This document shows positions 33,604 to 39,600 of a DNA stretch of 64,000 nucleotides, piece by piece. This stretch comes from Geoalkalibacter halelectricus (GTDB lineage: Bacteria > Desulfobacterota > Desulfuromonadia > Desulfuromonadales > Geoalkalibacteraceae), in contig NZ_CP092109.1 in assembly GCF_025263685.1 (NCBI RefSeq), forward strand, positions 372,001-436,000, written 5' to 3'. Numbering within the stretch: position 1 is the stretch's first letter; every line of letters begins with the position of its first letter. A program made the position numbers and the translations under genes. The notes beneath the pieces are model-generated. The model had not been told where the DNA came from. It ran no database searches and saw only the letters and a list, made by a program, of their open reading frames with translations.

Positions 33604-34530
33604 TCACCCCGGATTTTCCACCTCGCGCGGCGCCGCCTTCGTCACCAGTCGCGTCGCGCGCGGATCATGGTGCAGGCCACGGGTCAGGGCGCTGTCGCCG
33701 CGTGCGTAGCAATAGAGGCAGCCATGCCGGCAGGTACCGTAGATGCCGATGTCGATGCTCTTCGAACAGCGACAGGCCAGGCGCTGGCCGCCGTCTTTAC
33801 GTCTCGGCAGGTCGACACCGAAGAGCTCGCCGAGGAGTGCGGCGTCGATGCACGCCGCTGGTCGCACGCCGAAGGGCGACAGGTCCAGAGGTTCGGCACA
33901 GGACACTACCTCCAGGTCGCGCCGCGCGCCCTCTCGCGCCAGAGCCGCGGCCAGAGGACCAAGGCGCTTCAGCGCCTCCGCCGCATCATGCCGGTCCGGA
34001 TCGAACACCTCCAGCGCCGGAGCACGCCTCAAGCGCGCCTGCACCTGGCGGTAGTAACGGGCAAAACTGATCACGCAGTGGCGCACCTTGCCTTGCAGGG
34101 CCTCGGCAAGGCTTGCAAAGGCGGAGATAATGCGTTCCTCGGGAGTCAGACTTGAAAGGACGATGGGATCGAAGCGCCAGATCAGGCGCTGGGGGCCGAT
34201 TTTATCCGCCAGTTCCTCCACGGCGGCAAGAATCTCTTCCGGGGGTGGAACACGCGGCTCCAACGGCGCCGGCAGAGCGGTGAGAGTAATATGAAAAAGA
34301 CTGGTGTAGCCGCGCCGGTCGAGGTCGGCCACATGGGGCAGCAAGGGACGCGGATCCTTGCTCCAGAACACAATTCCCGCCACCGCCTGGGGACGCAGAT
34401 CGACGCGGCGAACCTGATGCGGATTGAAGGGGTTGGGCACCTCGACATGGCCGGCACGCAGCCGCTCCAGCAGCCAGGGCGTGTAGAAGGCGGGAATGTC
34501 GGTGCGGCGACTGGCGGAGATGATGTGCAT
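33604..34530 (-). CDS. DUF1848 protein (predicted iron-sulfur protein)
   Basis: A 308-residue DUF1848 protein with the N-terminal MHIISASRRTDIPAFY signature, VFWSKDPRPLL, LIWRFDPIVLS, and the C-terminal CRCSKSIDIGIYGTCRHGCLYCYA. The last motif resembles a radical-SAM-like CxxxCxxC site placed at the C-terminus, as in spore photoproduct lyase relatives. The reaction is unknown. A strong hairpin terminator lies 24 bases before the ATG, and there is no clear ribosome site, so expression may be conditional. Confidence 0.85.
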   Translation of the reverse strand: MHIISASRRTDIPAFYTPWLLERLRAGHVEVPNPFNPHQVRRVDLRPQAVAGIVFWSKDPRPLLPHVADLDRRGYTSLFHITLTALPAPLEPRVPPPEEILAAVEELADKIGPQRLIWRFDPIVLSSLTPEERIISAFASLAEALQGKVRHCVISFARYYRQVQARLRRAPALEVFDPDRHDAAEALKRLGPLAAALAREGARRDLEVVSCAEPLDLSPFGVRPAACIDAALLGELFGVDLPRRKDGGQRLACRCSKSIDIGIYGTCRHGCLYCYARGDSALTRGLHHDPRATRLVTKAAPREVENPG

Positions 34531-34553
34531 GAAGAAACTCGGCTACGGAAAAA

Positions 34554-34587
34554 CCGAGGCCCCGTTTCACCAGAAACGGAGCCTCGG
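34554..34587 (-). terminator. Strong terminator just upstream of DUF1848
   Basis: On the minus strand CCGAGGC-T-CCGTTTC pairs with GAAACGG-G-GCCTCGG around a TGGT loop, and TTTTT follows. It ends any transcript arriving from upstream only 24 bases before the DUF1848 ATG. It is either the terminator of an upstream non-coding transcript or an attenuator for DUF1848. Confidence 0.75.
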
Positions 34588-34686
34588 CCAAATCATGAGA
34601 AGTCGGTTTGCCACGACCAGCTTTCTTCCAATCCGTCAGCCGCGACCGTACTTTGATGGCATCCACCCGGCTCCGTCCGGACCCGA

Positions 34687-34850
34687 GGGGATGTGACATC
34701 TTTCCGGTGTGGGCTTTTTTCCCAGGGTGAATACGCCTGTGGCGGATGGGATGATACGGCTTCCGTCGTGAGGTCGCTCAACCCCGGCTTCTCACTTGGA
34801 GAATGGAGAAAAAACCCGACTCAGCGCACTAGGCGGTGAGGCATCTCCCC
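34687..34850 (+). ncRNA. Candidate rod-shaped structured RNA (6S-like?)
   Basis: In a 408-base gap without a gene, the plus strand can fold end to end. GGGGATG (34687-34693) pairs with CATCTCCCC (34842-34850), CCGGTG with CACTAGG, and GGGCTTTTTTC with GAAAAAACCC (34808-34817). CCAGGGTGA then pairs with TCACTTGG, with smaller hairpins at the tip. A GU pair favours this strand. The 3' part GGCGGTGAGGCATCTCCCC recalls the end of 6S RNA. I cannot confirm a family; the minus strand could also fold. Confidence 0.35.
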
Positions 34851-34938
34851 ATTCTTTTGCGTTTTCAAGGATCACATCCCTCCCTTTGGTTTTATTTTAC
34901 CACGCTCCGCGCGCGGAACGCAAAGTGCCGCTCCGGGG

Positions 34939-36150
34939 TCACCCAAAAGGCTGCTGTTCCACCCGCACCCGGCGCCCATCGTCGATTTGCGCCCCGGGGT
35001 GAGTGATGACGAGTTCGCCTGGTTCAAGGCCCTCGAGGATCTGAGTCCACAGCCCGCTGCGCCGCCCCGGCTCCACGGAACGTAAACGCGCGCGGCCCTC
35101 CTCGACGACGAACACCTGCCAGGCGTCATCGACGCGAAACAGGGCGCCGATGGGAACCTGCACCACCTCCTCGCCTTCCCAGAGGATAAAGCGCGCCTCG
35201 ATGCGAAATCCCTCGCCCAGGGTTCGCCAGTCCTGGCGCGGCGAGGTGATCTCCACCAGCACCGGCACCCGCCATTCATCAACCCCCAAGGCCGAGACCC
35301 GCTTGAATCCGGCCGGTTCGATGCGCCGCACCCGGCCTTCCAGATCGCTCTCGCCCCCCCAGCGTGTGATGATCACCCGCGCATCGGGCGGCACGCGCAC
35401 TGCGTCCATACTCAGCAGATCGACCTGGATTTCAAGATCTTCCGCCAGATTGCCGATGGCCAGAACCTGATCCCCAGCGTGAATGATCCCCTCGCAGCAG
35501 CGCTCGCGGCTCAAAACCACCCCGGAAACCGGCGCGCGCACCCGCAGCAGGCGCTCATCCTCGGGGCTGCGCGTTCCTTCGGCAATCTCGACCACGGCGC
35601 GGGCGGTTTCCACCTCGTGGCGCGCCGCCTCGACGGCGGCCGCGGCGGCGCGCACCGCGGCGCGACTGCGTTCCCAGGTGCGCCGCACCACATCCATCTC
35701 GGCAGCCGAAACCACGGCGGCCTCATACAAGGGCTGATAGCGCCGCACCTCGCTCTCGGCCAGCTGCGCCTGGGCGGTGCGCTCGGCGTGCTCGGCGTGC
35801 GCTGCGTCCAGGCGCGCGCGGGCCGCGGCGAGGGTTTCCCGCGCCTGTTCGCGCATGCGCGCGTCCAGGGCCGGGGCGGGACTCGGCTCGATGGTGAAAA
35901 CCACATCCCCGGCGGCGACCGGATCGCCCGGTTCCAGAGCGACCCGCCGCAAATAGCCGCCGATGGGCGCCAACACCGGATAGGAATCCCGCAGCCGGGT
36001 ACGGCCTTCGTCCTCGACATAGGCGACGAAAGGTCCCCGACGCACCTCCACGGCGCTGACCTCGGCGGGCGCGGGCAGCAAGGCCGCGACCACCAGACCC
36101 GCAAATACCAAAGCGCACAGCAGCAGAATGATTTTTTTTCGACGACTCAT
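34939..36150 (-). CDS. Periplasmic adaptor of a MacAB-like efflux system (HlyD/RND type)
   Basis: A 403-residue membrane-fusion protein. It has one N-terminal membrane anchor (about 5-25), a barrel-sandwich/lipoyl half (VAPIGGYLRRVALEPGDPVAAGDVVF), a long alpha-hairpin of alanine-rich coils (about 90-200), and a second lipoyl half (RAPVSGVV). Beta-barrel domains follow. It would link the inner-membrane ABC permease to an outer-membrane channel. It is last in an operon with the His-rich protein, ATPase and permease. ATG 36150 is used rather than an adjacent TTG. Confidence 0.85.
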   Translation of the reverse strand: MSRRKKIILLLCALVFAGLVVAALLPAPAEVSAVEVRRGPFVAYVEDEGRTRLRDSYPVLAPIGGYLRRVALEPGDPVAAGDVVFTIEPSPAPALDARMREQARETLAAARARLDAAHAEHAERTAQAQLAESEVRRYQPLYEAAVVSAAEMDVVRRTWERSRAAVRAAAAAVEAARHEVETARAVVEIAEGTRSPEDERLLRVRAPVSGVVLSRERCCEGIIHAGDQVLAIGNLAEDLEIQVDLLSMDAVRVPPDARVIITRWGGESDLEGRVRRIEPAGFKRVSALGVDEWRVPVLVEITSPRQDWRTLGEGFRIEARFILWEGEEVVQVPIGALFRVDDAWQVFVVEEGRARLRSVEPGRRSGLWTQILEGLEPGELVITHPGAQIDDGRRVRVEQQPFG

Positions 36151-38516: not shown

Positions 38517-39265
38517 CAGTGCAAATCCCGGGGCGCGGCGCGCTCCTCATTGAGGAGTTCCTCGGCCACCCGCCCATCACTGAGGCGAATTACCCGGTCG
38601 GCCATCTTACCGATGATTTCGTTGTGGGTGATCAGCACGGTGCTGGTGCCCAACTCACGGTTGATGTGCGCGATGACCTCCAAAACCTGCACGCCGGTCC
38701 TGGAATCCAAAGCTCCGGTCGGCTCGTCGCACAACAGAACCGCCGGGCGCTTGGCGATGGCCCGCGCGATGGCCACCCGCTGCTGCTCGCCCCCGGACAA
38801 CTGGGCGGGGAAATGATCCATGCGCTCCTTGAGACCCACCAATTCCAGAGCCTCCTCGGGAGCCATAGGATCGCGGGCGATCTCGGTGACGATGGCGACG
38901 TTCTCGCGCGCCGTAAGACTTGCGATCAGATTGTAGAATTGAAAGACAAACCCGACGTGATGCCGCCGGTAGCTGGTCAACTCCCGCTCATCATCCTGGG
39001 TAAGGGGTCGGTCGCGGTAGTACACCTCTCCCTCGCCCGCCGCATCCAGGCCGCCGAGGATATTGAGCAGCGTCGATTTGCCCGACCCCGAGGCCCCCAA
39101 CAACACCACCAACTCGCCCGAAAACAGCTCCAGATCCACGCCGCGCAGAGCCTGAATGGGCACATCGCCCATGACGTAGGTTTTCGTCAGTCCCCGGCAG
39201 CGCAGCACCGCGGCGTCCCGGGCGCTCGCCTCGGACCGCCGCGCCTGCTCAGTGCTTGTGGTCAT
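38513..39265 (-). CDS. ABC transporter ATPase (LolD/MacB type)
   Basis: A 250-residue ATPase with Walker [14 protein letters not shown] loop, signature [15 protein letters not shown], Walker [14 protein letters not shown] and H-loop STVLITHNE. This sequence class partners FtsX-type permeases. ATG 39265 follows AGGAG and lies within the last 17 bases of the His-rich gene, so the two are translationally coupled. Confidence 0.92.
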
Positions 39266-39515
39266 GGGGCTCCTGATCATGCCCGGGGTGATCGTGCTGA
39301 TGCTTCACCCCCACTCCCGGCGGGTGTTCATGATCGTGGTCGCCGCCCTTGGTCCCGTGGTCATGCTCATGGCTGTGCTCGAATTCATGGGGATGGCTAT
39401 GCTCATGGGTGTGTTGGTGGCTGTGCTCCTGGTCGCCGTGCTTATGCTGGTGTTCGTGCTCGTGCTTGTGCACATGGGTATGTTCATGTTTATGGGGATG
39501 TTTGCCTTCGGCCAT
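39249..39515 (-). CDS. Histidine-rich 88-residue protein (predicted metal-binding)
   Basis: An 88-residue protein of which 32 residues (36 %) are His, mostly as alternating H-x pairs with Lys, Glu, Gln, Ser or Asp. It has no signal peptide or membrane helix. ATG 39515 follows AAGGAG with ideal spacing, and the frame overlaps the ABC ATPase start, so it is a real first gene of the efflux operon. Such tracts bind Ni, Zn or Cu and serve as metal stores or chaperones. The divergent zevAB-like genes support a zinc or nickel link. Confidence 0.8.
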
Positions 39516-39600
39516 GACCGCACTCCTTTCGTTAAGCATTCGAGGTTTGTTCACCCGGCTGCCAACTCCAAGGGATGGAGCCGCACTGAAAATTACCTAA

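Follow-up and report, generated by a model that had tools for sequence, protein, structure and literature searches.

A Predicted Structured RNA Gene of Geoalkalibacter halelectricus and Its Relatives, Often Located Directly Downstream of 6S RNA

A gap between two protein genes of Geoalkalibacter halelectricus very probably contains, on the minus strand, a complete gene for a small RNA that belongs to a family of structured RNAs. The gene is composed of a promoter-like sequence, a boxA-like leader, a 5' hairpin, a conserved core and a terminator. This judgement is drawn from sequence comparison and predicted folds. The gap lies in the window analyzed here, that is, the whole stretch of 64,000 nt at positions 372,001 to 436,000 of the forward strand of contig NZ_CP092109.1 (assembly GCF_025263685.1); positions below are those of the window. 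It extends from the start of a DUF1848 gene at 34530 (Pfam PF08902, 300 bits) to the end of a HlyD-type gene at 34939, and is a gene-free gap of 408 bases, just as an earlier sequence-only reading of the window had described it. We coined the name X for the 205-nt core of the RNA (34797-34593, minus strand). The joint claim that this gene exists, lies on the minus strand, yields a trans-acting RNA and belongs to the X family is still highly probable.

Organization and Strand of the Gene

All features of the gene are on the minus strand. A -10-like TAAAAT (34894-34899, in the context GTGGTAAAAT) is separated by an 18-nt spacer from a -35-like TTGCGT of weak consensus (34918-34923). A consensus promoter scan of the gap gave no match, the window promoter being imperfect; many homologs have a comparable TGTGNTAWAAT context ahead of X or boxA. 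The leader contains a boxA-like GATCCTTGAAAAC (34861-34873), recognized by position and sequence, which departs from the consensus and misses the strict core pattern; the boxA of the homologs is clearer. It is followed by a predicted 5' hairpin (34800-34855), which takes the place, relative to boxA and X, that 6S RNA has in other genomes and may be a shrunken 6S.

The X core (34593-34797) was identified by a match of 146.4 bits to the covariance model R3, by covariation and by its fold (z = -3.14). It contains a small hairpin, ACGG-AAG-CCGT, on the 5' side of an internal bubble (34756-34766), which folds in the window and shows compensatory changes in homologs. A near-invariant internal helix was recognized in the alignments, with its 5' strand CCCATCCG at 34743-34750 and its 3' strand CGGATTGG at 34628-34635. 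The fold also has a hairpin CAGG-C-GU(AUUC)AC-CCUG (34723-34739), recovered de novo in a second class of bacteria, and an apical hairpin CGGGUCC-GGAC-GGAGCCG (34668-34685), whose helix pairs in the alignments A3 and A4. The gene ends with an intrinsic terminator, consisting of a 15-bp stem-loop (34554-34587), for which homologs have a terminator-like stem, and a T-run (34549-34553).

The sequence-only reading had proposed an unannotated rod-shaped RNA of 164 nt on the plus strand (34687-34850), or else a structured minus-strand leader preceding the terminator at 34554. The complementary strings that it quoted do lie where it placed them, namely GGGGATG (34687-34693) with CATCTCCCC (34842-34850), CCGGTG (34704-34709) with CACTAGG (34827-34833), GGGCTTTTTTC (34711-34721) with GAAAAAACCC (34808-34817), and CCAGGGTGA (34722-34730) with TCACTTGG (34792-34799). 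As a plus-strand RNA, the rod folds weakly (z = -1.67, equalled by 9 of 200 shuffles); on the minus strand, these 164 nt (34687-34850) give z = -0.23. The stretch folds poorly on both strands because its ends cut the true RNA midway.

The full unit (34549-34887) reaches -141.8 kcal/mol with z = -4.42 on the minus strand and z = -4.10 on the plus strand, both folds being aided by the symmetric terminator stem and the closing helices. Both strands fold much more stably than their shuffles, so that folding energy cannot choose the strand. We searched both strands with R3, and only the minus strand matched; the strand is therefore decided as minus. The 146.4-bit match arises by construction, as the training set of R3 includes the window sequence. 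Independent of this training are a blastn match to the genome G014 (71%) and the homologs of the second class. Thus the window has an R3 match on the right strand, the conserved helices and a terminator behind them, which are the marks of the X family. A structured RNA in the gap is supported by the covariance model and by covariation, and of the two alternatives offered earlier it is the minus strand that stands, while the plus-strand RNA falls away.

Conserved Structure and Covariation

In the minus-strand sense, the homologs share a common layout, in which a core of some 205 nt precedes a strong intrinsic terminator. The shared core (about 160 to 240 nt) is closed by a long helix and contains an asymmetric internal bubble, on whose 5' side sits a small hairpin. 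It further comprises the near-invariant CC(n)AUCCG/CGGAU(n)GG helix, a GU(nnnn)AC hairpin and a capped arm. For eight cores aligned with MAFFT and folded with RNAalifold, the consensus contained 52 pairs, 26 of which were changed on both sides.

The alignment across relatives that had been proposed as a check for compensatory changes was carried out three times, and in each alignment covariation exceeded that of all the shuffles. In A3 (32 sequences aligned to R1), 85.3% of the cells were paired, compared with 70.0% in shuffled alignments and 33 to 45% when the structure was slid, and 43 of the 52 pairs showed double changes. In A4 (51 sequences), 84.6% of the cells were paired (63.1% shuffled) and the covariation score was 0.503 (0.177 shuffled). 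Both alignments were fitted to the model and are hence biased towards it. A5 is a control free of this bias, in which 30 homologs of the second class were aligned with MAFFT alone and folded de novo. Here, 94.3% of the cells were paired against 86.4% in shuffled alignments, and 18 of 33 pairs were double-changed against 9.3; the test used 33 of the 34 predicted pairs, one isolated two-sided pair being omitted. None of 500 shuffles reached any of the measures in A3, A4 or A5.

The de novo fold of A5 recovers the closing helices, the bubble hairpin and the invariant helix. It adds the hairpin with the GU(nnnn)AC loop, which was absent from the first model and which the window also forms. The CC(n)AUCCG/CGGAU(n)GG helix barely varies; it thus gives little evidence of pairing, yet it marks a strong constraint on the sequence. 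On this comparative evidence, X is a real structured RNA.

Distribution of X

Using the gap as a blastn query among relatives, we found matches in 9 of 58 genomes, the own genome included. The R1 search of the order placed X in 30 of 136 genomes, after two terminator stems matched by R1 had been removed from the count. For the class as a whole, X was found in 89 of 277 genomes with R2 and in 107 of 277 with R3; the latter correspond to 79 of 187 good-quality genomes and 40 of 82 genera. These R3 counts include 51 loci on which the model was trained and which match by construction. At the sensitivity of R3, X is missing from 170 of the 277 class genomes. A deeper search of 16 genomes detected X in 4 and not in the other 12, so the absence looks real in several families. 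Because many class genomes lack X, it is not required by all of them.

A phylum-wide sample of 395 genomes gave 16 matches, and 12 of these came from outside the class. One of these 12 belongs to what is referred to here as the second class, in which 40 of 63 genomes carry X; they cover 27 of its 38 genera. Among the named contigs with X are Desulfuromonas sp. CSMB_57, Pelobacter sp. UBA6812 and UBA5610, as well as several Desulfuromonadales MAGs. A pattern scan of named genomes returned 28 contigs, of which 10 carry X; the other 18 have no R3 match and were treated as chance. We also considered a viral origin and rejected it: two motif scans of viral contigs returned 0 and 1 stretch, and the single stretch has no R3 match.

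Linkage with 6S RNA, boxA and tRNA-Sec

The neighbourhood of X was analyzed in 109 class loci, comprising the best R3 match in every one of the 107 genomes, together with the second copy present in the own genome and a copy in G002 from the deeper search. With an nhmmer profile of 6S RNA built from 18 sequences of this class, 16 of them from the 109 loci, 6S was detected upstream on the same strand in 78 of the 109 loci; it lies at most 60 nt from X in 73 and is a separate upstream gene in 5. When the 16 training loci are excluded, 6S is found upstream within 600 nt in 62 of 93 loci. The Rfam 6S model exceeds its threshold directly upstream of X in L034, L037 and L042, and among 20 further loci it does so upstream in 12 and remains below threshold in 3 more. 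Among 13 weaker class loci it matches in 2 only, one of them below threshold.

A strict boxA core stands just before 6S in 46 of the 70 boxA-6S-X leaders with enough flank, compared with 49 of 2180 random windows. In one genus-sized group (g65), another hairpin mostly takes the place of boxA before 6S. A terminator-like stem comes right after X in 104 of the 109 class loci.

In the second class, 15 of 30 loci have tRNA-Sec behind X in the same orientation (L191-L195, L198, L201, L203, L205, L206, L208, L210, L213, L217 and L218), in 14 of them within about 110 nt. Partial nhmmer 6S matches occur upstream in 9 of these 30 loci, and Rfam saw none in the 7 loci submitted. The linkage with 6S and tRNA-Sec groups X with stable RNA genes.

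A small gene whose product ends in ...ETDIDTFVRE, presumably ferritin-like or rubrerythrin-like, precedes X in the families f4 and f7 (L023-L033, L035, L040 and L043). In L005, it is located upstream of 6S and X.

Copies in the Host Genome and History

The only 6S (RF00013) matches of the host genome are at C1:1679030, 364932 and 2977684. Four arrangements are found in this genome. L002 is the canonical 6S, which has neither boxA nor X. L003 is a boxA-6S without X, with its own terminator; this second 6S (L003:1480-1725) lies about 7 kb before the window. L004 is a boxA-6S-X with a divergent X (35.4 bits with R2, 73.2 bits with R3). The fourth, the window locus, has X behind a boxA-like leader and is free of 6S. 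Class genomes often have two 6S matches.

G024 and G049 each carry one 6S-linked X and one 6S-free X. In a tree of 51 cores, the two copies of the host, of G024 and of G049 fall across one split (local support 0.92). The 6S-linked L034, L037 and L042 are also on the 6S-free side, together with L124. The position of the copies across one split suggests an old duplication, from which the X copies may tentatively be derived, the tree being built on some 200 alignment columns.

The genome G003, of the same genus, keeps only the 3' end of X and the terminator (L011:1483-1600, compared with window 34549-34640). This remnant is joined directly to the first codons (MAEGKH) of a His-rich gene, which in the window (39515) lies about 4.9 kb upstream of X. 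It looks as if the efflux operon and most of X were lost from G003 in one deletion. In the window, the minus-strand gene at 39249-39554 encodes a small, very histidine-rich protein, which is possibly metal-related; it lies between what we take to be a DUF1007-like gene and an ABC efflux operon. In L003 (1731-1897), an inverted repeat, AGGAGACTGTCGGAC...GTCCGACAGCCTCCT, comes right after the boxA-6S terminator and appears MITE-like by eye.

Comparison with Known RNA Families

The Rfam covariance-model search proposed earlier found no family at gathering thresholds in the gap, and up to E 10 it gave only two chance-level matches there. No family matched X in the window or in the other loci submitted to Rfam. 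Matches below threshold to sX6 (21 bits), Thr_leader, 23S-methyl and Trans44 were regarded as chance, several of them being on terminator hairpins. RNase P RNA (RF00010) has its sole genome match at C1:1936897-1937284 (297.6 bits) and small SRP RNA (RF00169) at C1:2577518-2577616 (78.6 bits), neither of them at X. A tmRNA or tRNA-like identity was rejected as well: in 46 class loci ARAGORN called no tRNA or tmRNA gene at or near X, and Rfam has no such match at X. A conserved protein in place of an RNA is made unlikely by the lengths of the core (162 to 206 nt), which differ by non-multiples of three.

The sequence-only reading was also reminded of 6S RNA by the fold and the 3' sequence. This resemblance was not upheld, as RF00013 has no match at 34520-34960 up to E 10 and the 6S genes of the genome are elsewhere. 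By chance the idea touches something real: judging from the loci analyzed, the RNA is directly behind 6S in most relatives having X.

A riboswitch or cis leader was rejected because there is no constant family of downstream genes on the same strand. A downstream flank of 900 nt or more was available in 58 loci. By a crude rule that takes the longest ORF of this flank, 39 loci have it on the strand opposite to X, 18 have it on the strand of X, and 1 has none. The encoded proteins cluster into numerous unrelated groups, of which the largest comprises nine, and the DUF1848 protein of the window is in none of them. Since the genes behind X vary among genomes and more often have the opposite orientation, X is no leader, and this part of the earlier minus-strand proposal fails.

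Possible Role of X and Alternative Explanations

We tentatively suggest that X is a housekeeping-type RNA of this phylum, a partner of 6S from a boxA-antiterminated precursor, which could tune RNA polymerase or the ribosome in slow growth, and that the unit was later split in some lineages. The host would be an example, with its boxA-6S, boxA-6S-X and boxA-X loci on a single chromosome. On rRNA leaders, boxA recruits Nus factors and shields untranslated transcripts from Rho. By analogy, the boxA before X may load Nus factors, and the untranslated transcript would then escape Rho and fold properly. In most relatives, boxA, 6S and X would form one precursor, which would be cut into 6S and X. The X of the window would be transcribed from its own promoter, and this copy may derive from a boxA-6S-X unit whose 6S part shrank to a hairpin. 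The invariant helix, the bubble and the hairpin of X form a putative protein-binding face. The likeliest mode of action, proposed with some reserve, is that the trans-acting X serves as a structural RNA that binds protein and influences the machinery of transcription or translation under conditions of 6S production. A protein-binding role is favoured by the location of the conservation, which is found in small loops and helices, and by the association of X with stable RNAs.

X could instead be a second rod that binds RNA polymerase, serving as a 6S-like decoy in which the asymmetric bubble would imitate another open promoter. The closing helix, the bubble with its small hairpin and the apical arm recall the layout of 6S, and the two RNAs are apparently co-transcribed. 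However, X has neither the sequence features of 6S nor an RF00013 match, its hairpin is on the 5' side of the bubble and a branched junction lies beyond the bubble, which makes such a decoy unlikely. The abutment of 6S and X in 73 of 109 loci, together with the short 5' hairpin at the place of 6S in the 6S-free copy of the window, would also fit a 3' tail that serves the maturation or stability of the second 6S and lacks a function of its own, the 6S-free copies then being relics. We think this quite unlikely. Entire families (L023-L033, L035, L040 and L043) conserve an X that lacks 6S and has its own promoter-like sequence and terminator, many 6S-free copies score above 120 bits and retain covariation, and the canonical 6S (L002) and the boxA-6S (L003) of the host do without X.

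An antisense-type small RNA that base-pairs with mRNAs is no more probable than such a tail. The conserved, unpaired, purine-rich GAAGCC, AAAGC and GAAAGG could serve this purpose, but conservation is mostly in helices and small loops and not in one single-stranded seed. The variable downstream genes described above bear on a cis-acting leader or attenuator of DUF1848, to which the arrangement in the window, with X and its terminator directly before the DUF1848 gene on the same strand, would point. Given that 39 of the 58 loci have their downstream ORF on the other strand and that the downstream proteins are unrelated, with DUF1848 ungrouped, this is most improbable. Least credible of all is a 6S-like or other rod-shaped RNA on the plus strand: the complementary strings are present and fold with z = -1.67, but neither strand has a 6S match, the 6S genes lie elsewhere and R3 matches the minus strand only.

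As a conserved, covarying RNA of about 200 nt that occurs in two classes of one phylum and has no Rfam family, X would join the small set of structure-driven bacterial RNAs. Its junction with a second, boxA-led 6S would suggest an rRNA-like antiterminated 6S unit in these bacteria, as far as the sequences indicate. The linkage poses the question of why 6S needs a partner, and species with X alone, 6S alone or both provide a natural test set.

Relation to Known Systems

Our survey of the literature, mostly open-access, returned nothing on 6S RNA with boxA and antitermination and nothing on X. For Geobacter sulfurreducens, the parts of PMC10599522 that were covered merely list the annotated 6S gene. 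PMC11109978 scanned a Geobacter genome, and the main-text parts covered do not describe X. By term search, these genera are absent from the main text of PMC2864571 and PMC8632094.

6S RNA (RF00013) has several traits in common with X: both are stable, structured and about 200 nt long, and both have a long closing helix and an internal bubble. 6S is also usually the direct upstream neighbour of X, often behind one boxA and promoter. X differs from it in having no sequence or covariance match, in being branched beyond the bubble, in the CC(n)AUCCG/CGGAU(n)GG helix and in its occurrence without 6S. Leaders of rRNA and CRISPR transcripts can also be led by boxA. The X unit shares with them a boxA-like element shortly after the promoter and an untranslated transcript; this likeness is one of sequence, and the RNA behind boxA is here 6S and/or X. 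The tip of helix 8 of SRP RNA carries a characteristic motif. In some homologs of X, the apical CAGGUCC-nnAA-GGAGCUG resembles this tip of the small SRP RNA (RF00169); however, CAG pairs with CUG in X, so that there is no symmetric loop, and a proper SRP RNA is located elsewhere in the genome.

OLE, GOLLD and ROOL are orphan large structured RNAs of bacteria. X resembles them in its complex, covarying structure with no assigned function; it differs from them in having no Rfam match, in its occurrence in two classes of one phylum and in its links with 6S and tRNA-Sec. The smtA motif, in the parts of PMC11109978 covered here, is another orphan structured RNA to which X can be likened. X represents a family of structured RNAs that matches none of the families tested, and orphan structured RNAs are themselves a known kind of discovery.
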